This document shows positions 5,761 through 14,057 of a stretch of DNA of 14,057 nucleotides, one piece after another. Numbering within the stretch: position 1 is the first letter of the stretch; every line of letters begins with the position of its first letter. The position numbers and the translations under genes were made by a program. The notes under the pieces are model-generated. The model was not told where the DNA came from and made no database searches. It was given only the letters and a program-made list of their open reading frames with translations. Source of the stretch: Parcubacteria group bacterium GW2011_GWB1_44_7 (lineage in GTDB: Bacteria; Patescibacteria; Paceibacteria; UBA9973; DSPV01); assembly GCA_000999175.1 (NCBI GenBank), contig LCJJ01000010.1:1-14057 (forward strand). Direction: 5' to 3'.

Positions 5761-7020
5761 TCATAAATACTTCAGCGGATCCAGATACGCTTTCGGGTCG
5801 GCAATTGGCATCCGATAAATACCACCGCAAATTTTACTCTGTCGATTCGCCACCTGCACGCCTTGAGTGGCATAAACCGTGAAATGTAAATGCGGTCCAG
5901 TGGCATAACCGGTCGCCCCGCTGTAACCTAGCACCGCGCCAGTTGCCACCTGTTCCCCTTCACTGACTTTTATCAGCGATAGATGAGCGTAAAGAGTGGA
6001 CAGACCGTTGTTATGCTCAATCAAAACCCATTTTCCGTAGGAAGCACTCGGACAAACTTGGTCGGTATCGCCGACGCCACGCACTTTGCCTTCAAGCGCC
6101 GCTTTAACCGGCGTGCCGATTGAAGCCCGAAAGTCCACACCATTGTGACCAGAACCATTATACACCGTCGGATTAGACAAAGAAAATGAAGTCAAACCAA
6201 ATTTTTGGGTAATGGCAACGCTGTCCAAGGGCCAATGCAGGACACCAAGACCGGCTGGTGGAATTTTACTGGGGTCAATGGCAATGTTGAGCGCCGATTC
6301 AAATTCCCCCAATTCTTTTTCAAACGCCTCTTTAAGCGCCAATTTTTCCGCTAAAGTTTTTTTGTAATTAGCCTCTTTATTTTTAGTCGCTGAAAGCAAA
6401 GTGTTGGTTTCCTTTTTATTGTATTCAATGATGGTTTTTTGGTCGGCAAGGTTGCCGCGAAAAGTTACCAAATTTTTCTTTTTGGCTTCTTCCGTTCTTT
6501 TGTCCGTTTCCAAACCAACTTTCAGTTCTTTAATCACCGTCAACGCCGCACCAATGCCGCTTTTGAGCTGACTAAGCGCCTCCAAATCATTCCAAAGCGC
6601 CGAAAATTTTCCATTGAGCGCCGTTTCCACAAAAGTGTTTGATTCTAGTTGATTAATTTGGCGAATGGCTTCGGCAATTTCCCCCCGACGAGTTAAAATA
6701 TTGTCTTCTTTTTGAGTAATCGCCAAACCCAATTCTTCAATGCTCAAAGACGCGCTGGCGATTCTATTTTCGGTAACTTTTAATTCAGCGGCCAATTTTT
6801 TTCTGGTATTTTCCAGTTCGTTGATTTTTGCCTGTAAGGTCTGTTTCTCCGCTCCGGCCACCGAAAGCTTTTCTTGGTAAGTGGCAATTTCTTTTTCTAA
6901 ATCAGCAATGGCATTACTGCGCTCAGAAATTTTCGCCCGCAACTCATCAATAGTCGCGGCGTTATTAAAACTCGGTATGACGAAAATAAAAATCACCAAA
7001 AAAATTATCTTGGTTTTCAT
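5761..7020 (-). CDS. Secreted coiled-coil M23 (LytM/EnvC-type) peptidoglycan endopeptidase
   Basis: The signal peptide MKTKIIFLVIFIFVIPSFNNA is followed by a long coiled coil (about 23-245, rich in Lys, Glu and Leu) and a C-terminal LytM domain (about 260-385). The metal site is visible: GHNGVDF gives His292 and Asp296, YAHLS gives His346, and GPHLHF gives His377 and His379. All are present, so the enzyme should be active as a zinc metallopeptidase cleaving peptide cross-links, unlike the degenerate EnvC. The layout (signal, coiled coil, LytM) is that of EnvC-like septal hydrolases or their regulators. It overlaps gltX by ATGA (4 bp), so the two are translationally coupled. The stop is TGA 5763-5761, followed at once by the palindromic element. 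Confidence 0.93.
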   Translation of the reverse strand: MKTKIIFLVIFIFVIPSFNNAATIDELRAKISERSNAIADLEKEIATYQEKLSVAGAEKQTLQAKINELENTRKKLAAELKVTENRIASASLSIEELGLAITQKEDNILTRRGEIAEAIRQINQLESNTFVETALNGKFSALWNDLEALSQLKSGIGAALTVIKELKVGLETDKRTEEAKKKNLVTFRGNLADQKTIIEYNKKETNTLLSATKNKEANYKKTLAEKLALKEAFEKELGEFESALNIAIDPSKIPPAGLGVLHWPLDSVAITQKFGLTSFSLSNPTVYNGSGHNGVDFRASIGTPVKAALEGKVRGVGDTDQVCPSASYGKWVLIEHNNGLSTLYAHLSLIKVSEGEQVATGAVLGYSGATGYATGPHLHFTVYATQGVQVANRQSKICGGIYRMPIADPKAYLDPLKYL

Positions 7021-8393
7021 TCCAATAGTTTTATTGCTTTGTCAATACGAGCCAAACTTTCTTCTTTGCCGAAAATTTCCAAGAGTGCCAATGGATCGGG
7101 CGATTTTTCCCGACCAGATAATGCCACCCGCAAAGGCCATAAAATCTCGCCTCTCCCCTCTTTTTCTGCTAAGACCATCAAATTTCCCGAAAGTTCTTTA
7201 AGGTTGAACCTTGAATCTTCAAAAAGGTTCAACCTTTTTCTGACCTCTTGCAAACGCGCGCGCGTCCGGCCCGCGTCTTTATCTTTCTTCCACAAAAGCA
7301 ACTCCTTCGGATATTCCGGCGCCTGGAAAAAATATGCCAATTCTCCCCTGTCCGCCATTTCCTTTATATCCCCGAGTTTATTAATTCTCTCAGTCAAAAC
7401 TGGTTCAATTTTTTTCAAAATCTCTTCGTTAAATCCTAATAAATTTAATTTCCTAAATCCTTCTTCGTACTTCTTAATTCTTACTTCATACTTCGTCTGC
7501 TTCAAATGTTCCCTATTTAGCCACTCTAACTTTTCTTTATTAAAAATCGCTCCGCTTTTTTGGACTTTCGTCAAATCAAAAAGCTTAATCAGTTCCGCCA
7601 TTGAGAAAATCTCCCGCTCCCCGCCCGGATTCCAACCGAGCAAAGCCAAATAATTCACCAACGCTTCGGGCAAAAAACCCTGCTCTCGATAAAAACCAAC
7701 CGAGACACTTTCGCCGTGTTTGCGTTTGGAAAGTTTGGCGCGGTCAGACGCAAGTATCAACGGTAGATGCGCATAAATCGGCTCGCTTTCGCTCGCCGCA
7801 GACTTTGGCGAAACAAGCGTTAGCGCCCGCCAAATCAAAATCTGTCGCGCCGTATTGGAAATATGGTCTTCGCCACGAATGATGTGGGTAATGTCCATTT
7901 CCTTGTCGTCTGCCACATTGGCAAAGTGAAAAATTGGTTCGTCCACGCTTTTGGCAATTACAAAATCACCAAGCTCTTTAGTATCAAAAGTAATTTCACC
8001 TTTAATCAAATCAATAAAAGAAATTTTTTGACCGGGATTTTTAAAACGAATTACCTGCTTTCTCTCCCCTTCACTTTCTTCCGAAACATAGGCAAAGCCT
8101 TTATCCAAAAAATCTTTCAAGAATTTTTTATAAATTTCCAAACGCTCCGACTGGCGAAAAAATTCATCATGCTTGATACCCAGCCATTCTAAATTTTCCA
8201 AAATATCTTTTTCATATTCCGGCTTGTCACGCTCTTTGTCAGTATCTTCTATTCGTAAAATAAATTTACCGCCGGTATGGCGGGCGAAAAGAAAATTAAA
8301 TAACGCCGTCCGCGCGTTGCCCAAATGTAAAAACCCCGTCGGCGACGGCGCGAACCGTACCCTTATTTGTTTTCCTGTCATTTTTCCTACCAT
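7017..8393 (-). CDS. gltX: Glutamate--tRNA ligase (class I)
   Basis: This cytosolic enzyme charges tRNA-Glu. The Rossmann core starts RVRFAPSPTGFLHLGNARTA with the HIGH-type motif HLGN (23-26). The middle has GDFVIAKSVDEPIFHFANV and HIIRGEDHISNTARQ, and the KMSKS-type motif is KLSKR (220-224) in DRAKLSKRKHG. The C-terminal anticodon-binding region runs from about residue 300 to 458. Length (458) is in the normal range. Segments that look like additions include LVSPKSAASESEP (about 193-205), YEVRIKKYEE near the middle of the C-terminal domain, and RLNLFEDSRFNLKE, which is encoded by the palindrome pair at 7200-7239. ATG 8393 is preferred because TATGAT ends 6 nt upstream. ATG four codons later, preceded by GGTAGGA, is an alternative. 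First gene of the gltX-M23 unit. Confidence 0.97.
   Translation of the reverse strand: MVGKMTGKQIRVRFAPSPTGFLHLGNARTALFNFLFARHTGGKFILRIEDTDKERDKPEYEKDILENLEWLGIKHDEFFRQSERLEIYKKFLKDFLDKGFAYVSEESEGERKQVIRFKNPGQKISFIDLIKGEITFDTKELGDFVIAKSVDEPIFHFANVADDKEMDITHIIRGEDHISNTARQILIWRALTLVSPKSAASESEPIYAHLPLILASDRAKLSKRKHGESVSVGFYREQGFLPEALVNYLALLGWNPGGEREIFSMAELIKLFDLTKVQKSGAIFNKEKLEWLNREHLKQTKYEVRIKKYEEGFRKLNLLGFNEEILKKIEPVLTERINKLGDIKEMADRGELAYFFQAPEYPKELLLWKKDKDAGRTRARLQEVRKRLNLFEDSRFNLKELSGNLMVLAEKEGRGEILWPLRVALSGREKSPDPLALLEIFGKEESLARIDKAIKLLE
7200..7239. repeat. Palindrome pair in gltX (AAGGTTNAACCTT family)
   Basis: AAGGTTGAACCTT (7200-7212, centre G) and AAGGTTCAACCTT (7224-7236, centre C, extended by flanking A and T runs to 7221-7239) start exactly 24 nt apart. 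Each is a perfect odd-length palindrome, and they are reverse complements of each other. They encode about 14 residues in frame near the variable C-terminal part of GluRS. Same family as 9528-9561 and 12065-12101. Confidence 0.85.
7464..7496. repeat. Degenerate short direct repeats in gltX
   Basis: TACTTC/TTACTTC units recur (7469, 7481 and 7489 region) within about 33 nt. On the coding strand they give KYEVRIKKYEE. Low-complexity insertions of this sort look foreign to the GluRS fold and may be a dispersed repeat. Weak evidence from this window alone. Confidence 0.35.
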
Positions 8394-8412
8394 ATCGTTA
8401 TCATATCGTTAT
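8391..8412 (-). promoter_or_regulatory. gltX promoter built by an 11-bp tandem duplication
   Basis: CATATCGTTAT occurs twice head to tail (8391-8401 and 8402-8412). On - the junction creates TATGAT (8405-8400), which ends 6 nt before ATG 8393. The upstream repeat copy carries its own out-of-frame ATG that meets TAG after five codons. A leaderless gltX transcript is implied. Confidence 0.5.
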
Positions 8413-8447
8413 TTTGTTATTTTACCATAATTTCCCAACCACAAAGA

Positions 8448-8476
8448 TTTTCCATCAACTCCGAGTTGATGGAAAA
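8448..8476. repeat. Left palindrome of the Y1 transposase element
   Basis: TTTTCCATCAACTC (8448-8461), centre C, and GAGTTGATGGAAAA (8463-8476) form a perfect 29-nt palindrome. TTGATG in its right arm (8466-8471) lies 17 bp before TAAAAT (8489-8494), a plausible promoter for the transposase, so the hairpin may also control expression. Confidence 0.9.
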
Positions 8477-8506
8477 ACAAAACTTTGTTAAAATTTAGTT
8501 ATTCTT

Positions 8507-9187
8507 ATGAGAAGAGAACCTCGTCCCATCGGTTGTTATATGCACATCACCAAACGCGGCACCCGTGGTATGGAAATTGTGCGCGACGATTCAGATCATT
8601 GGCGCTTTATTAAACTTCTTTATTATTTAAACAACAACAATTACAGACATCTGGAGTGGGAACAAGAACTTTTTAGAAGTAAAACTCCGATTTTCACTTG
8701 GCCCAATCAGTGGCCGCCCCGCGAAAAATTAGTAGAAGTCGTCGCTTATATACTTATGCCAAATCACTTTCACTTACTTTTGAAAGAAATTCGCGATGGC
8801 GGTATTTCTCTTTTTATGCAAGGACTATGCGGCAGTATGACACTTCATTTTAATGAAAAATACAAAGAAAAAGGTAGTATTTTTCAAGGCGCCTATAAAG
8901 GCAAACTAATTGACACTGATGAATATTTCAAACGAGCGGCAATTTACATTATGGTTAAAAATTCTTTTGAACTTCTGCCTGGTGGAATAAAAAAAGCGTT
9001 AAAAAATTTTGATTCGGCTTGGGATAAATCAATAGCATACAAATTTTCCAGTTTGGCGGATTATGTTGGTCAGCGAAACTCGTCGATAATAGATAAAGGA
9101 TTGTTAAAGGAAATATTCAAATCTCCGGCCAAATTTAAAGAATTCGCCAAAGACACAATGTTTGGCAGAAAAATCGACATCTTATGA
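8507..9187 (+). CDS. REP-associated/IS200-like Y1 (HUH) transposase
   Basis: This single-strand DNA transposase is 226 residues. The N-terminus RPIGCYMHITKRGTRGMEIV with RDDSDHWRFIKLL fits the RAYT/Y1_Tnp family start (GxYxHvxnRG..). The HUH motif is MPNHFHLLL with His87 and His89. The region SIFQGAYKGKLID is equivalent to the conserved 'vFqgRyks..vd..yl' of the family. The likely nucleophilic tyrosine is Tyr147 in AAIYIMVKN, where relatives have YIHxNP. All key residues are present and the frame is intact, so it may be active. These enzymes cut and join hairpin-marked single strands, and RAYTs are linked to the spread of REP palindromes. No Shine-Dalgarno. Probably expressed from TTGATG-17 bp-TAAAAT at 8466-8494. 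Independent of gltX, which is divergent. Confidence 0.92.
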   Translation: MRREPRPIGCYMHITKRGTRGMEIVRDDSDHWRFIKLLYYLNNNNYRHLEWEQELFRSKTPIFTWPNQWPPREKLVEVVAYILMPNHFHLLLKEIRDGGISLFMQGLCGSMTLHFNEKYKEKGSIFQGAYKGKLIDTDEYFKRAAIYIMVKNSFELLPGGIKKALKNFDSAWDKSIAYKFSSLADYVGQRNSSIIDKGLLKEIFKSPAKFKEFAKDTMFGRKIDIL

Positions 9188-9194
9188 GTTGTCG

Positions 9195-9229
9195 TTGATT
9201 TCCATCAACTCTGAGTTGATGGAAATCAA
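9195..9229. repeat. Right palindrome of the Y1 transposase element
   Basis: TTGATTTCCATCAACTC (9195-9211), centre T, and its perfect reverse complement (9213-9229) begin 7 bp after the transposase stop. It shares the CCATCAACTC core and the TTT/AAA flank with the left copy. The single-base centre means the real loop would be 3-5 nt. Confidence 0.9.
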
Positions 9230-9231
9230 AT

Positions 9232-9533
9232 ATGACCGGTACCCAAATTTTGAATCGCATTAAAAACGAAGGCGTCTCGGTCACCCAAGCCGCCAAAGAC
9301 CACTCGGAAAACTTCGCCGGGAAAACAAATCTTTGCTTGAACTGGTTGGCGAAATGACACTCAATCTTTCTGAAACCCAAAAAAGAATTGAGAAGAATTG
9401 TTATGTCATCAAAAACAATTCTGACCAGAGAGCCGGGCGTTTCCAGAATATTTTTCCTCAACATTTAACTTCAAAACATTCATCTCCGATTGGATGAATC
9501 TTAAGAAAGCCGACGAAACTCTCAAGGAAGGCT
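9232..9533 (+). pseudogene. Decayed IS3-like transposase (orfA/orfB remnants)
   Basis: No intact gene, but three frames carry transposase-like pieces in order. ATG 9232 gives TQILNRIKNEGVSVTQAAKDH, an OrfA helix-turn-helix start, stopping at 9355-9357 after an internal deletion or frameshift. The frame entered at 9318 gives RENKSLLELVGEMTLNLSET, the typical OrfA leucine-rich end. The frame at 9403-9468 gives SSKTILTREPGVSR, like the OrfB start before the usual SxLYY. A last piece, ISDWMNLKKADETLKEG, ends at 9533. So an IS3-type insertion sequence lost most of its length, including the catalytic domain. It begins 2 bp after the right palindrome of the Y1 element. Family assignment rests on motif memory. 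Confidence 0.6.
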
Positions 9534-9568
9534 AAACCTTCCTAAAAGAAGGTTTAACCTTCCTTTTT
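9524..9568 (+). terminator. Strong 18-bp hairpin terminator made of an AAGGTTNAACCTT-type pair
   Basis: AAGGAAGGCTAAACCTTC (9524-9541) pairs with GAAGGTTTAACCTTCCTT (9548-9565), with one C-A mismatch and the loop CTAAAA. A T run extends to 9568 on +. On - the stem could also end the surface-operon transcript, whose last stop is at 9577-9575, though the minus T tract is poor. The sequence is a diverged pair of the palindrome family seen in gltX (AAGGCTAAACCTT at 9528 and AAGGTTTAACCTT at 9549). Confidence 0.75.
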
Positions 9569-9574
9569 AGGATG

Positions 9575-11005
9575 TTACCGACCTAAATTGTAGAGCTGCA
9601 ACACTTCGGCCGCGGAGAGGGCGCGGCTGTAAATCCGGACATCATCAAGCGAGCCGCCAAGATACGCGGCGGAAATGCGTCCAATGTTCATTGCGCTGGC
9701 ATTGATGCCGGTGCCGGTCGTAATTGCCACATGATGCCAGTTGGTGTCGTTAATGGTAGAGGCCGCGGTGCCATCCACATAGCGGGTGGGGCTCGTGAAG
9801 TTGTTCCCGTTGAGGGTGCCGGAATCAATGGTAACGGTAGCGGTGCCGTTGAGGTCAAGAATCTTCTGCAAAGTGGTGGAGGTGGCAACTTTAATCCAGA
9901 ACGAAACCGACTGGACGCCATTGTAGGAAGCGCCCAGGGTTACATAATCGTTGATGCCGTCGAATGAAAGCGCTTGGCCAACTTTGCCGGGGACGGTCGT
10001 CGTGCCCGAGCTGCTATGTATGAGCGAGCCGTTATCCCCCTGCCCGCTTTTGTCGGCGATGTTGGTGAGCATGTCGGGGCCGTCAAAGGTCCACCAACCG
10101 ACGAGGCCGGAGGTCAAAGAATCGCGGCCGGGGAGAGTTTTGGCGATTTTGGATGTGGCGCCGATTTGGTAGAGACGCGTTACTTCGGCGGCGGAGAGTG
10201 CGCGGGTGTAGACGCGGACATCGTCAATGTTACCATTAAAATAATAACCGGCGAATTTCTTCCCCCCTATTCCGGCGCCACCTGAAGGATTATAAAAAGT
10301 GGAAGCGCCAACCGCCGCGTTCTGGTAAGTGCTGTACAGCGCACCATTGATATACAATCGGAGAGAGTTGTCCGCTTTATCAATCACACCGGCAACGTGA
10401 TACCATGTATTGAGTGATGGCGCGAAGTCGGTACCCGTATCAAAATAGCTGAGACCGCTATTATAGGATTGAAAGAGATAAATATATTTTTCAGAACTTC
10501 CATTTGTTGACAATCCAACATAATTTGCATTATCAAACACGGGGTCTGAATCCATGACCATCATTTGCCAACCGGACCCCAGGCTGTTCCACCTGAACCA
10601 CCCCGCAAATGTCTTAGCATCAAGCCCACCGACATCGGTCGCTGTATTCACCCAATCATTAGTCCCATCAAACGACATCGCCTGGCCGACGCGGCCGGGA
10701 GCGGTCGTCGTGCCCGAGCCGCCGTGCGAAAACGACCCGTTATTTCCCGACCCGCTTTTGTCGGCGATGTTGGTGAGCGTGTCGGGACCATCCATCGTCC
10801 ACCAGCCAACTAGCCCTATTTCATTTACCGGACGGGTGAGGGTTTTGGAAATGGTGGCCGCCGCGCGAGCTTCACTTGGGATAAATACAGAAAATACACC
10901 CGGAAAAATAAACCCGAGAATGAGCGCGGCGCTTAGTGAAGCTCGCGCGGCAATTTTCAATTGTGGATAAAAGTTGCTTGACATTTTTTTTCTGTTTGCT
11001 ACCAT
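9575..11005 (-). CDS. Secreted protein with two LamG/concanavalin-like domains
   Basis: About 476 residues. The N-terminal export signal MVANRKKMSSNFYPQLKIAA.. has a hydrophobic core SLSAALILGFIFPGVFSVFI and a cleavage-like EARAAA, then two jelly-roll domains. Domain 1 (about 65-283) opens LVGWWTMDGPDTLTNIADKS and ends NIDDVRVYTRALSAAEVTRL. Domain 2 (about 300-476) opens LVGWWTFDGPDMLTNIADKS and ends SLDDVRIYSRALSAAEVLQL. Their edges are near-identical while the cores differ. LamG domains bind carbohydrates or proteins, so a cell-surface adhesive or binding role is likely (inference). Start: ATG 11005 has AGGG 8 nt upstream. GTG at 11011 in the same frame is an alternative. Last gene of the minus operon, 10 bp after the NYN gene stop. 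GC-rich edges with AT-richer cores. Confidence 0.85.
   Translation of the reverse strand: MVANRKKMSSNFYPQLKIAARASLSAALILGFIFPGVFSVFIPSEARAAATISKTLTRPVNEIGLVGWWTMDGPDTLTNIADKSGSGNNGSFSHGGSGTTTAPGRVGQAMSFDGTNDWVNTATDVGGLDAKTFAGWFRWNSLGSGWQMMVMDSDPVFDNANYVGLSTNGSSEKYIYLFQSYNSGLSYFDTGTDFAPSLNTWYHVAGVIDKADNSLRLYINGALYSTYQNAAVGASTFYNPSGGAGIGGKKFAGYYFNGNIDDVRVYTRALSAAEVTRLYQIGATSKIAKTLPGRDSLTSGLVGWWTFDGPDMLTNIADKSGQGDNGSLIHSSSGTTTVPGKVGQALSFDGINDYVTLGASYNGVQSVSFWIKVATSTTLQKILDLNGTATVTIDSGTLNGNNFTSPTRYVDGTAASTINDTNWHHVAITTGTGINASAMNIGRISAAYLGGSLDDVRIYSRALSAAEVLQLYNLGR
9579..10850 (-). repeat. Imperfect duplicated edges of the two LamG modules
   Basis: The stretch 9595-9660 resembles 10175-10240 (shared TTCGGC, GCGGAGAG and CGGACATC blocks), and 9975-10110 resembles 10684-10815 (shared GGTCGTCGTGCCCGAG and CCCGCTTTTGTCGGCGATGT). 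Between these edges the two copies no longer match. This is the DNA signature of a domain duplication in which the core of one module diverged or was replaced. Confidence 0.7.
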
Positions 11006-11015
11006 GTTCACATCC

Positions 11016-11561
11016 CTACGAAAGAGACCCTTGCGAGGTTTTGTCCTCGCCGGGGGCTTTTTCTTTTTGACTTAGCTCTAACAAACTTCTTTGCCCATTA
11101 ATATAGGCAATTTTTGCTCCCGTCCGCTTAAGTAAAATGGAACATTTTTCGGGAAGATGCGGCGATAAAACAGCTCCGAGTCTTTCGCGCGCGATAAGAA
11201 AATTGACTAATCCGGCATAATCGCCATCACTTGAAACGATAAGAGCCAAATCACATTTTTTCTCATAGGCATCGCACACCGCCTGCAAAACCAAATCAGC
11301 GTCGCAGTTGCCTTTCGGCTTACCCAAACCGTCATAGACAACTTCCTTAAATACCAAAGTGAAGCCGGTTTCCTGTAAGTATTTATACAGCTGTTTATAT
11401 TTTGGTATTAATCCCAAAAAGATATAGGCCTTCTGAATCTTATATTTATCCGAAAGCCAAACTCTAAAACGAGCGTAATCCAGTTTCCAGCCCAAAGCAA
11501 CCATTCCGTGATGTAAATTGGCGCCGTCTATGTAAGCAAAGTTGTTTTTTCTTTCTCTCAT
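11016..11561 (-). CDS. NYN-domain (LabA/DUF88-type) putative RNase
   Basis: A PIN-like fold protein of about 181 residues. Acidic metal-site candidates are visible: YIDGANLHHG (first Asp of the family), KGNCDADLVLQAV and IVSSDGDYAGLVNFL. The order (FAYIDGANL, helix, KAYIFLGL, CDADL, SSDGDY, GAVLSP) is standard for NYN proteins, thought to be metal-dependent RNases. A basic/acidic tail follows INGQRSLLEL. ATG 11561 is chosen because it makes an ATGA overlap with the upstream stop and has GGAA a few bases before. ATG 11573 in the same frame would overlap by 16 bp. It sits between two surface-protein genes. Its own truncated relative lies at 2-163. Substrate unknown. Confidence 0.88.
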   Translation of the reverse strand: MRERKNNFAYIDGANLHHGMVALGWKLDYARFRVWLSDKYKIQKAYIFLGLIPKYKQLYKYLQETGFTLVFKEVVYDGLGKPKGNCDADLVLQAVCDAYEKKCDLALIVSSDGDYAGLVNFLIARERLGAVLSPHLPEKCSILLKRTGAKIAYINGQRSLLELSQKEKAPGEDKTSQGSLS

Positions 11562-12190
11562 TTGAAGTTCCATGTATTTAACACTCTTTGTAATAAAGTG
11601 TCATTGGAGAGCGGCGCGGTGAGCTGGTAGAGGGTGCCGCCGAAGATAAACCAGACCTCGCGGGTGCCGGTGTCTTCCGCGACCCACGCCAGTCCTGTAG
11701 AAATCAGATTTCTACGGGGCGTGGAAATCTGATTTCTACCGGAGGCGCCGCCAATGAGCACGTCCTGCGGGTCTTTCACTTTCATTTCCGGAATATCGCG
11801 GGCGAGGCGCGCGGCAGTAATGTCGGTATCCGGGTCGTTGTAGGGTTCAAGGTGAATCTGAAATCCGGCTTGGCGCTTTGAATCTTGAACCACGATTGTT
11901 TCGCCCGCCCCTTCTGCTGAAGCGGATAACCGCGATACCGAAAAGCCATCAGGGTAAGAAAACGAAAATCCGGCTTCGTGGCGGAAAGTTTTTGGCAAAT
12001 CCATTTTTTTCTGCTCCGGTTCGGGGATGGTGTCGGGGTAAATTTCCGAGAGTCCTGGATTAGAAAGGTCAGACCTTAAATCTACAGAAAGGTCTGACCT
12101 TTTTTTAGACGAATCAGCGAAATACCAAACCGCCGCCGCGAGAGCCGCAAGAATAAGTATGACTATTAAAATTTTTACAGTTTTTTTCAT
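11558..12190 (-). CDS. Membrane-anchored protein of unknown function, 210 aa
   Basis: The N-terminal anchor KKTVKILIVILILAALAAAV with WYF is followed by a low-complexity linker (about 28-65) and a compact extracytoplasmic domain from FRHEAGFSFSYPDGFSV to the end (LTAPLSNDTLLQRVLNTWNF). The 'fsYPdgFsv...w...tW.f' pattern resembles the PsbP-like or MOG1-like small domains often found on bacterial lipoproteins. I do not assign a family. Two pairs of palindromes lie in frame: one in the linker (RSDLSVDLRSDLS) and one in the domain (GRNQISTPRRNLIST). Both look like insertions that a permissive loop tolerates. AGGA just before ATG 12190 and a 15-bp gap after the surface-protein stop mark it as an internal operon gene. 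ATGA overlap with the NYN gene. Confidence 0.8.
   Translation of the reverse strand: MKKTVKILIVILILAALAAAVWYFADSSKKRSDLSVDLRSDLSNPGLSEIYPDTIPEPEQKKMDLPKTFRHEAGFSFSYPDGFSVSRLSASAEGAGETIVVQDSKRQAGFQIHLEPYNDPDTDITAARLARDIPEMKVKDPQDVLIGGASGRNQISTPRRNLISTGLAWVAEDTGTREVWFIFGGTLYQLTAPLSNDTLLQRVLNTWNFK
11697..11739. repeat. Palindrome pair in the 210-aa gene, folded-domain part
   Basis: GTAGAAATCAGATTTCTAC (11697-11715, centre A) is a perfect palindrome. GTGGAAATCTGATTTCTAC (11721-11739, centre T) differs from its reverse complement at one base. The starts are 24 nt apart, with a 5-nt spacer. In frame, encoding GRNQISTPRRNLIST. Confidence 0.9.
12065..12103. repeat. Palindrome pair in the 210-aa gene, linker part (AAGGTYNRACCTT family)
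   Basis: AAGGTCAGACCTT (12065-12077, centre A) and AAGGTCTGACCTT (12089-12101, centre T) are both perfect palindromes whose starts are 24 nt apart. A T run follows on +, so the same DNA looks like a terminator on the antisense strand although it lies inside a gene. In frame, encoding RSDLSVDLRSDLS. Confidence 0.9.
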
Positions 12191-12205: not shown

Positions 12206-14057
12206 TTAAATCACCGGCTCGGTGGTGGTCGCAACCCCACCCTCCGTCCCTCCCCCAAGGGGAGGGGTGGAAGTGGAAACGTCAATTGGCGATTCTTCCA
12301 CTATCGGCGGAGTGGTGGTAGCGGTTTCCGTCGGTAGTGGTTGGTCGCCTGCCCCGTTTGGTCCGCCCGAGGCGGATCCATCGGGGTTGGTTGTAATGTT
12401 AACTATTCTAGTGGAAGTTGCGGTCAAACCATTATTATCGGTCGCCGAGTAATCAATGGTATAAGTGGTGCTGGTGGAAGTGTCTAAAGAAATTTGAACA
12501 ACTTGGATGCCGTTCACGAAATTGCGGACGCTCAAATCAAGACCGTTGCTGTCTCTGGCAATCACTCCCAAATCAACATAGCTCGCTCCCACTTCAATTT
12601 CTGCCGGATTATTCCCTTGAATAGTAATAGTGGGACCAATCGCCGGAGAACTGGAGGCGAAACCTCCAGTGGAGGTTTCGCCTCCTCCGGAAGAATTTCC
12701 CGCATTCTGCAACAATGCCACCAGCTGCGTTTCCGTAACGCAAGTCGCGCCGATACATAGCTCATCATCCACCACTAGTTTTTTAACTTGAAGCAAACCT
12801 TGAGTAATTCTGGTTCCTAACGAAGCCAAATAATCCAAAACCTTAACCGCCACTTTTTCAATGAAAGACGGCGAATCGGCGAGCGCGCTGGTGGTGGAGG
12901 CTATTAACGACTCAATTTCCGACAAATCCTCGCCGACAAAATTGAACTGTCGGTCAATAAATACCGTAATAGAGGTATCGGTACTCGTAGCGGTAAACGG
13001 CTCAAGGGCGATACCGAGCGTCTGCCCGCTTGTCGTCGCCTTGGCGCCTATGCCGGAAACGAAAGACGGACTAATCCGGTCGCCGATGGCAATCTCTCCG
13101 CCATCCAAATTTACTTTAACCGGCACTCTACCTGCCAAAACCACCGGCACTTTTATTTCCTCGGCGTAAAGCGCGTTGCCGAAACCGCCAAGCAAAACGC
13201 CGGGCGCGGTGGAAATCACGCCGAGAAGAACAGGAGAAGTGGAACTAGTTGCATTAGCTTCGTTAGCTTGATACTTTTTGACAAACACCGGATTGACCGG
13301 GTCCAACATCACCAAATCGCCCGCCGAAAGCGTCTCGTCTTTAGTCGGATAATTTTCCGCCAAGTCAATCAGTCCAATGGAACTGGATTCGGCGTAAATG
13401 TTGCCGCGCGTCAAAGCGCCGTCATCGCAGTTGCTCGCCCCGCCGTCATCCACGCAGAGCGCGCCGTCGGCGACAATCAGCGACCCGTACGGAATGTTGG
13501 CGCTTGTGAGAACCGCCGCCGTGGAAGTGCCGACAACGGCGCGGGTCTTCGTAATTACTCCACTACCATCCGCCTCGCCGTAGACCGTAAAGACTTGCTC
13601 ACCCTGGAGAGTGGCAGAGAACGCCTCGCTCGTCCCCGACGGCGCCGAGGAGTTAATCGGTAAATCAATCCAGGTCGCCCAACCGGCGTTGGTTTCAAAG
13701 GCGAGGTTCCCGAGTTCCAGATTGTCCACCTGCGTTATGCCGCTCGCGTAATGCCGGAAGGCGCCGTCGGTGAGCGAGAGCCCGCCTTGGAACGAAGAGG
13801 TCGCCGTGGCACTGTCCGCGTTGTAATATCCGCTTGCGGTGAGGCCTGCGACAGAAAGTTGTGCGTATGGGGTCGTGGTGCCGATGCCGACTCTTCCCTG
13901 CGAATCAATCACGAAGGCGGTGCTCGTTGCGGTGAGAGTGGAGGTGGAGATTCTGAATAAGTCAGCCGTCGTGTTCGCATACCCCGCCATGTAGAACCCG
14001 AGGGCGTTTGAGGCGGCGTTGACCGAGAGCTTTGCGGCGGGAGAGGTAGTGCCGATG
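12206..14057 (-). CDS. C-terminal part of a very large surface (tail-fibre-like) protein
   Basis: The frame is open to the window edge: 22 codons precede the first internal ATG (13990) and read IGTTSPAAKLSV, the same repeat as VGIGTTTPYAQLSV further on, so the true start lies outside. Counting from that ATG, the order is: beta-repeat region (1-170), a C..C segment LCVDDGGASNCDD, then LIDLAENYPTKDETLSAGDLVMLD (about 207-230) leading a domain like the intramolecular chaperone/autoprocessing domains of tail fibres (Peptidase_G2 type, to about 348). A helical hairpin with LASLGTRITQGLLQVKKLVV (about 375-412) follows, then LCIGATCV with two Cys, an Ig-like DUF5011-type domain (about 448-533) and a Thr/Pro-rich end. 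Cleavage at the chaperone domain would be an inference. First visible gene of the operon. Palindromic insertions lie in its low-complexity parts. Confidence 0.85.
   Translation of the reverse strand, partial: IGTTSPAAKLSVNAASNALGFYMAGYANTTADLFRISTSTLTATSTAFVIDSQGRVGIGTTTPYAQLSVAGLTASGYYNADSATATSSFQGGLSLTDGAFRHYASGITQVDNLELGNLAFETNAGWATWIDLPINSSAPSGTSEAFSATLQGEQVFTVYGEADGSGVITKTRAVVGTSTAAVLTSANIPYGSLIVADGALCVDDGGASNCDDGALTRGNIYAESSSIGLIDLAENYPTKDETLSAGDLVMLDPVNPVFVKKYQANEANATSSTSPVLLGVISTAPGVLLGGFGNALYAEEIKVPVVLAGRVPVKVNLDGGEIAIGDRISPSFVSGIGAKATTSGQTLGIALEPFTATSTDTSITVFIDRQFNFVGEDLSEIESLIASTTSALADSPSFIEKVAVKVLDYLASLGTRITQGLLQVKKLVVDDELCIGATCVTETQLVALLQNAGNSSGGGETSTGGFASSSPAIGPTITIQGNNPAEIEVGASYVDLGVIARDSNGLDLSVRNFVNGIQVVQISLDTSTSTTYTIDYSATDNNGLTATSTRIVNITTNPDGSASGGPNGAGDQPLPTETATTTPPIVEESPIDVSTSTPPLGGGTEGGVATTTEPVI
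12237..12270. repeat. Hairpin repeat at the surface-protein C-terminus
   Basis: CCCTCCCC (12248-12255) and GGGGAGGG (12259-12266) form an 8-bp stem with a CAA loop. CCAC (12237-12240) and GTGG (12267-12270) can extend it. On the coding strand it gives PPLGGGTEGGV in a Thr-rich tail. C/G-rich hairpins of this type are, from memory, a frequent dispersed repeat in Parcubacteria genomes. Confidence 0.7.
12362..12376. repeat. Short hairpin TCCGCC-CGA-GGCGGA
   Basis: A 6-bp stem with a 3-nt loop in the linker after the Ig-like domain (coding NPDGSASGGP). Short, but the same kind of in-frame GC hairpin as its neighbours. Confidence 0.5.
12653..12685. repeat. Inverted repeat whose arms are themselves hairpins
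   Basis: GGAGGCGAAACCTCC (12653-12667) and its exact reverse complement (12671-12685) are separated by AGT. Each arm is also GGAGG-5 nt-CCTCC, so it folds either as one 15-bp hairpin or as two 5-bp hairpins. In frame, encoding GGGETSTGGFASS between the conserved LCIGATCV segment and the Ig-like domain. Start-to-start distance is 18 nt. Confidence 0.85.

Follow-up and report, generated by a model that had tools for sequence, protein, structure and literature searches.

Several described families of short bacterial palindromes bear on a 14,057-nucleotide stretch of DNA (the window) from the Parcubacteria group bacterium GW2011_GWB1_44_7 (contig LCJJ01000010.1), in which odd-length palindromes occur in inverted pairs, here called doublets, both inside and between genes. 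The closest are the REPINs, doublets of repetitive extragenic palindromic (REP) sequences in which two inverted palindromic units and a spacer form one long hairpin, compensatory changes are seen, copies are dispersed, and a tyrosine transposase lies nearby, such as a REP-associated tyrosine transposase (RAYT). Published REPINs are extragenic (14 of the 1,067 occurrences of the three main SBW25 16-mers overlap genes), and their units have imperfect cores set 71 bp apart in group I. Intragenic REPs are also on record: in the available portion of Di Nocera et al. (2013; PMC3733652), whose REPs are mostly intergenic and GTAG- or CGTC-tagged, intragenic GTAG/CGTC dimers encode 20–30 residues in hosts that include tRNA synthetase and tRNA-modification genes, a REP occupies about the same recB site in two Xanthomonas species, and Patescibacteria go without mention. 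Likewise, the TnpA_REP subclass 2.4, as covered by the available portion of Quentin et al. (2018; PMC6006769), has symmetric double-foot REPs, some with GTGG...CCAC ends, and palindromes within RAYT genes whose frame is intact; the main text of that paper does not mention Parcubacteria, the Candidate Phyla Radiation (CPR) or candidate phyla. Rickettsia palindromic elements (RPEs) are in-frame palindromic insertions of about 150 bp in metabolic genes of another phylum, for which the available portion of PMC10969869 describes no RAYT link. Literature searches, with subscription papers and preprints outside their scope, found no report of such elements in Patescibacteria, the CPR or Parcubacteria among the titles and abstract openings listed.

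Compared with these systems, the palindromes of the window and its relatives are very probably REPIN-like elements, probably moved by RAYTs and tolerated in protein loops. With REPINs they share the inverted doublet folding into one hairpin and the link to a RAYT; they are termed REPIN-like rather than REPINs because 29 of 43 catalogued doublets lie in open reading frames (ORFs) instead of outside genes, and because 26 of 35 pairs open with a perfect palindrome; the commonest pitch is 24 nt. Earlier papers (PMC3733652; PMC6006769, in the portions available) describe intragenic REPs with one shared site and REPs lying in frame within RAYT genes; new are the Patescibacteria as hosts, the frequency of doublets in ORFs and housekeeping genes, the occurrence of elements in the same loop of more than one relative, and the anatomy of spacer and arms. 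The REP name denotes an extragenic position, whereas many of the RAYT-linked doublets in these small-genomed bacteria lie within housekeeping genes and therefore shape proteins. In this uncultured bacterium and its relatives, everyday genes host hairpins without breaking, and the loci form a natural series for following how coding DNA copes with a transposase-linked repeat, and for asking if paired arm changes stem from hairpin selection or from templated repair.

Anatomy, excess and spread of the doublets

The doublets of the window, with the two genes that host three of them, are as follows:

7017..8393, minus strand: gltX, host gene (Pfam tRNA-synt_1c and Anticodon_2)
7200..7236, no strand assigned: doublet in gltX, AAGGTTGAACCTT, an 11-nt spacer and AAGGTTCAACCTT, coding for RLNLFEDSRFNL
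9528..9561, no strand assigned: intergenic doublet AAGGCTAAACCTT / AAGGTTTAACCTT, pitch 21
11558..12190, minus strand: 210-aa gene of unassigned function, host of two doublets (no match in a Pfam scan; homologue search returning 27 proteins, its own entry included)
11697..11739, no strand assigned: doublet of GTRGAAATCNGATTTCTAC in the 210-aa gene
12065..12101, no strand assigned: doublet in the 210-aa gene, AAGGTCAGACCTT, a spacer and AAGGTCTGACCTT, coding for RSDLSVDLRSDL
12653..12685, no strand assigned: doublet GGAGGCGAAACCTCC / GGAGGTTTCGCCTCC in a 594-aa gene, pitch 18, coding for GGETSTGGFAS

A first-pass annotation had described the palindromes at 7200/7224, 11697/11721 and 12065/12089 as regularly spaced inverted pairs, and their centres are indeed 24 nt apart, the second arm being the reverse complement of the first save for one mismatch in the 19-mer at 11721. 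The common sequence family proposed at the same time is also real, as AAGGTYNRACCTT is present at 7200, 12065 and 9549. Two further pairs held in part: that at 9528/9549 is a doublet of pitch 21 but is intergenic and has one mismatch in its first arm, and the arms at 12653 are exact reverse complements of each other but imperfect palindromes. The window doublets measure 33–43 nt and the doublets of the AAGGTY family 35–39 nt between outer arm ends. Feet of the form GT[AG]G ... C[TC]AC are found in GATATC-type units and at 11697 and are absent from the AAGGTY family and from the flanks of the RAYT-like gene of the window; the AAGGTY family thereby differs from the tagged REPs of PMC3733652, and the GATATC family of the relative G001 (see below), with its GTGG...CCAC ends, recalls the double-foot REPs of subclass 2.4, both as described in the portions available.

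The window holds 13 odd palindromes (arm of at least 6), whereas 30 dinucleotide shuffles averaged 5.5 and never exceeded 10. Among them are three pairs with centres 14–40 nt apart, of which a shuffle contains 0.03 on average. The codon-preserving controls suggested earlier were run with a detector that demands 13-nt arms, palindromes with at most one mismatch, mutual reverse complementarity with at most one mismatch, and at least three G or C. Against one observed pair in gltX and two in the 210-aa gene, synonymous resampling gave 1 and 7 pairs per 1000 trials, respectively, and codon-order shuffling gave 0 per 1000 for both; the detector found no pair in the 594-aa gene, the 12653 arms being too imperfect for it. 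With the 594-aa gene included, the controls stayed between 0 and 7 pairs per 1000.

Genome-wide counts were made in G001, the genome of locus L001 (Ca. Taylorbacteria bacterium RIFCSPLOWO2_02_FULL_44_35), which stood in for the genome of the window and of which 480 of about 600 kb were examined. The window GltX, whose named close matches are Patescibacteria and Parcubacteria proteins, is 74% identical to that of L001, and much gene order is held in common. The scan for odd-palindrome pairs that had been proposed revealed the expected enrichment: odd pairs numbered 35 and even pairs 2, and a shuffle yielded 0. Among the other relatives sampled, G003 had 11 odd pairs and 1 even pair in 152 kb, G004 had 1 in 86 kb and G005 had 0 in 100 kb, some of these stretches having been selected for holding RAYT matches; seven relatives lacking a RAYT match yielded 0 pairs in 227 kb, and the surroundings of gltX in 79 other loci (1171 kb) yielded 8 odd and 3 even pairs. 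By core, the families of G001 are AAGGTYNRACCTT, GAAATC/GATATC, GACACC, GAGGC, AAGGC and CGAGTC, and a pitch-18 GAGGCGAAGCCTC doublet comparable to that at window 12653 lies between genes. A phylum-wide spread of the AAGGTY doublet was considered and rejected, as only 4 of 379 genomes hold it (3 of 5 in the taxonomic family).

The rule of a pitch in whole codons did not hold in general. It is 24 nt in 15 of the 35 G001 pairs and 25 nt in 8, and 11 of the 21 pairs inside ORFs have a pitch of 20, 22, 23 or 25, which does away with a multiple of three as a general rule and as a coding adaptation. Nor is the 24-nt, 8-codon spacing a feature of coding insertion, because it is also frequent between genes (6 of 13 pairs, against 8 of 21 in ORFs); it belongs to families found both in and outside genes.

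Arm complementarity was assessed in 35 pairs picked by core pattern at distances of 18–45 nt; eight of the 13 positions are set by the pattern itself, which leaves five to carry information. Of the 35 pairs, 31 have arms that are exact reverse complements and 34 have complementary centre bases (37 of 38 when a wider distance is allowed). Where the first arm is an imperfect palindrome (9 pairs), the two arms are still exact reverse complements in 8. The long hairpin, one of two folds envisaged at the outset, is the predicted minimum-energy fold of all five window doublets, and predicted hairpin DNA z-scores range from −4.5 to −10.8 across these and two palindromes flanking the RAYT-like gene. 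At the 12065 doublet of the 210-aa gene, the spacer is the same in the window and L001 and both centre bases are exchanged; likewise, the transketolase doublets of G001 and G003 have an identical spacer and centre bases that differ in a paired way, with one further G003 position that no longer matches. Judged from these sequences, the paired changes are what one would expect both if the long hairpin is selected and if templated correction acts.

The RAYT-like gene and its link to the palindromes

Between gltX and the 9528 doublet lie a transposase gene and two palindromes:

8448..8476, no strand assigned: odd palindrome left of the RAYT-like gene, core CCATCAACTC C GAGTTGATGG
8507..9187, plus strand: RAYT-like Y1 (HUH) transposase gene, 226 aa, motifs NHFH and YIMVKN (Pfam Y1_Tnp, E 1.2e-5)
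9195..9229, no strand assigned: odd palindrome right of the RAYT-like gene, core CCATCAACTC T GAGTTGATGG

The encoded protein has the HUH motif, the tyrosine and the TnpA_REP fold expected of a RAYT, although its score in NCBIfam falls short, the best model being REP_Tyr_transpos (E 3.9e-7), which it hits with 30 bits where 80 are required. Searching the PDB by sequence found nothing; the structural model (pLDDT 92) has as its top PDB match 4er8, a TnpA_REP bound to a REP hairpin (E 2.3e-5), with modest TM-scores (0.44/0.58) and IS200-type transposases close behind. N86, H87, H89 and Y147 are invariant in 52 aligned proteins, and F88 nearly so; by its motif, Y147 is probably the catalytic tyrosine. 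The motif around it is YIMVKN in the window, YIHLNP in many relatives and different again in others, and thus departs from the YIxNNP given for subclass 2.4 in the available portion of PMC6006769. A RAYT-like gene stands beside gltX in the same relative orientation in both the window (8507–9187) and L001 (7023–7757); the two are only 46% identical, and their flanking palindromes differ.

In G001 and 40 relatives, 60 RAYT matches were found, spread over 25 of the 41 genomes, and palindromes are associated with them. The core motif RAGGTYNRACCTY totals 398 in the 25 RAYT-bearing genomes (G001 included) against 15 in the 16 genomes without a RAYT (p 5e-5), whereas the reversed-pattern control gives 30 and 26. 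Around 31 RAYT loci (30 of the 60 matches, and the window), odd palindromes with arms of at least 8 number 51 per 12.4 kb within 200 nt of the match and 12 per 58.3 kb at 500–1500 nt, while even palindromes number 4 and 7 in the same zones; a perfect odd palindrome of this kind lies within 200 nt in 24 of the 31 loci, and on both sides in 14. In 6 of the 31 loci, for example in G020, a palindrome falls within the RAYT match itself, with frames open and free of stops, as in subclass 2.4 so far as described (PMC6006769); the RAYT of the window has none.

The flanking sequences also correspond to those dispersed elsewhere. In G020, G013 and G026, the RAYT-flank core is the commonest core among the matches listed. 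The RAYT gene of G020 has AAGGTCTGACCTT on one flank and inside the gene, and AAGGTTCAACCTT followed by AAGGTCAGACCTT on the other flank; AAGGTCWGACCTT is the family found in the genes of that genome. Two of the three RAYTs of G001 are flanked on both sides by doublets of families dispersed in G001, and one has a single palindrome of matching sequence at one side only; AAGGCTAAACCTT doublets, with the same arm as at window 9528, stand on either side of the third RAYT. The G003 RAYT closest to that of the window (62%) has AAGGTYNRACCTT palindromes on both sides.

Doublets within genes

A catalogue of AAGGTY-type doublets, drawn from stretches of G001, G002, G003, G020 and the window that were partly selected for holding matches, has 43 entries, 32 of them 37 nt long: 29 in ORFs of at least 80 aa, 12 intergenic and 2 partial. 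The G005 stretches searched for such doublets held none. Pfam scans of ten host proteins identified Dus (twice), a tRNA methyltransferase-type protein, a glycosyltransferase, a class II tRNA synthetase, both transketolase halves, GatB, MurB and TP methylase; the names MnmA, GlyRS and RsmI for host proteins are our own reading. A preference for genes was considered and rejected, given that ORFs cover 86–90% of the stretches of G001, G003 and the window. Doublets nevertheless lie in ORFs more often than single units do (23 of 33 against 10 of 44, p 6e-5, with partial overlaps excluded and stretches partly match-selected).

In-gene core-motif units number 35 in the AGG frame and 15 and 7 in the other two. 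Irrespective of its centre base, the unit A-AGG-TYN-RAC-CTT leaves one frame open, and in that frame the usual spacer RRATCYGNAGA contains no stop in either orientation. The majority in the AGG frame is explained for the most part by the avoidance of stops; among the 33 units open in all three frames, the frames are used 13, 14 and 6 times (p 0.18), and a frame preference by design was discarded.

Homologues differ in the presence and number of units while keeping the frame. At the 11697 site of the 210-aa gene, the two units of the window correspond to a single one in L001, which is exactly 24 nt shorter there, and some homologues have neither doublet site. The transketolase and Dus loci were surveyed in the best 30 of 36 genomes with a match per gene (G020 being added for Dus). 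AAGGTY units occupy the transketolase linker in 4 of 30 genomes (G001, G003, G005 and G020), which amounts to 4 of 19 with a RAYT match and 0 of 11 without; most other transketolases have a shorter linker loop, and the element-bearing proteins of the relatives are 56–60 per cent identical to that of G001. In the G005 linker (L224, near 2075), two identical AAGGTCCGACCTT units stand across a short spacer with centres that are not complementary. The element is present in Dus in 3 of 29 usable rows. The L001 counterpart of the 594-aa gene has other residues at the site of the 12653 doublet.

In GltX, protein comparison of close homologues reveals at one site either the residues of this element or GGEASLGGFASK, which resembles the 12653 family. 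The element residues (about 386–398) are modelled between helices H374–388 and H398–412, where model confidence dips to a mean pLDDT of 67 for residues 391–400. In-frame insertion, as first proposed, therefore describes the 210-aa protein, transketolase and Dus, but not GltX, where residues are replaced at equal length. Had the coded residues been native, palindrome-free homologues should have kept them; where this was tested, they had other residues or a shorter loop.

The spacers bear on whether shared sites descend vertically. That of transketolase is identical at 11 of 11 positions between G001 and G003, a likeness reached by only 2 of 133 spacer pairs, this one included; the G001–G003 spacers of Dus (7/11) and of the glycyl-type synthetase (7/12) are no better than the family mean of 7.5 of 11. 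On these spacers, the shared sites may or may not descend vertically.

Origin of the doublets

The copied and probably mobile family that the first-pass annotation had proposed is favoured by the enrichment in G001, by presence and absence between homologues and by the RAYT linkage. Its members would be nonautonomous, REPIN-like elements, each a pair of odd-length palindrome copies, inverted across a short spacer, of which one strand folds into a single hairpin. By analogy with TnpA_REP, RAYT-like HUH/Y1 transposases would most likely recognise such single-stranded hairpins, cleave them, and copy or move them. Copies arriving in genes would survive, presumably neutral for the protein, if they keep the frame, bring no stop and fall in a loop, where they would add or replace about 7–14 residues. 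Later, the number of units may fall or rise in steps of one pitch, and the arms may change in concert and so stay complementary.

Several observations weigh against this interpretation. Movement itself is deduced, no excision, target duplication or movement having been seen. The cut-off of 80 for NCBIfam REP_Tyr_transpos is reached by 0 of 9 RAYT-like proteins (best 46.8), and the RAYT of the window carries another palindrome than the AAGGTY family of the window. Seven of the 31 RAYT loci have no odd palindrome (arm of at least 8) within 200 nt, 6 of the 25 RAYT-bearing genomes (G004, G009, G018, G029, G031 and G034) hold 0 or 1 core motifs, and RAYT-less genomes hold up to 4. In transketolase, long loops with a different sequence and without such palindromes are also present in G012 and G022, which have no RAYT match; four further rows, two from RAYT-less genomes, contain single odd 13-mers that differ in sequence, and the G005 units form a tandem rather than an inverted pair. 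The element-coded residues of GltX bring no net gain in length relative to distant homologues, and the doublets show no preference for genes.

Template switching at hairpins during replication, known as quasi-palindrome correction, could in principle let doublets grow and stay symmetric without a transposase. It would explain why arms change together over an unchanged spacer and why differences in one arm are mirrored in the other, needs no selection, and fits, as slippage, the difference of exactly one pitch in the 210-aa gene; yet it leaves unexplained one motif at many unrelated places, a partly conserved spacer (mean 7.5/11, G001 against G003) and the RAYT association. As a full account it is improbable, although it may well act on copies after insertion. 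Hairpins selected for regulation within genes, through RNA stability, translation pausing or termination, would suit the stable predicted folds, but the hosts are unrelated (tRNA synthetases, Dus, transketolase, MurB, TP methylase, glycosyltransferase), most homologues of the two surveyed genes lack the element, and both orientations and all three frames occur, which makes this origin quite improbable.

The likeness to RPEs drawn at the outset extends to palindromic in-frame insertion within housekeeping genes, and the boundary with REPs is itself porous, as RPE-4 and RPE-6 of R. conorii are counted among CGTC-tagged REPs (PMC3733652, in the portion available). It does not extend to size, 33–43 nt here against about 150 bp in the available portion of PMC10969869, nor to the phylum or the RAYT link, and membership in a family of the RPE kind is very unlikely. 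Chance or codon constraint would be in keeping with the ordinary residues encoded; with 0–7 pairs per 1000 in synonymous or codon-order shuffles and 0 in whole-stretch shuffles, this source of the pairs was rejected as vanishingly improbable. REPIN-like elements, probably RAYT-moved, remain by far the best reading. It is further conceivable, if rather doubtful, that these elements represent a REPIN-like lineage specialised on the coding DNA of compact genomes, kept in or returning to the same loops (the transketolase linker, Dus and the glycyl-tRNA-synthetase-like protein) in different relatives, with a sequence that follows the local RAYT.

The genes around the 210-aa gene also differ between the window and L001. 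A gene at 9575–11011 encodes a protein with two LamG-type stretches (478 aa, against 705 aa in its apparent L001 counterpart), and the 594-aa gene (12206–13990) encodes an Ig-like surface protein with an apparent L001 counterpart of 929 aa. A stand-alone NYN-domain protein gene lies at 11016–11573, between the LamG-domain gene and the 210-aa gene; at its place, L001 has no ORF of at least 80 aa. Elsewhere in G001 (contig 12, L156:10670–14191), a 1174-aa protein contains an intein (Pfam Intein_splicing, 674–1008) whose middle is an NYN domain (746–901), where a homing endonuclease would be expected, and a triple AAGGTY palindrome element lies inside this intein.

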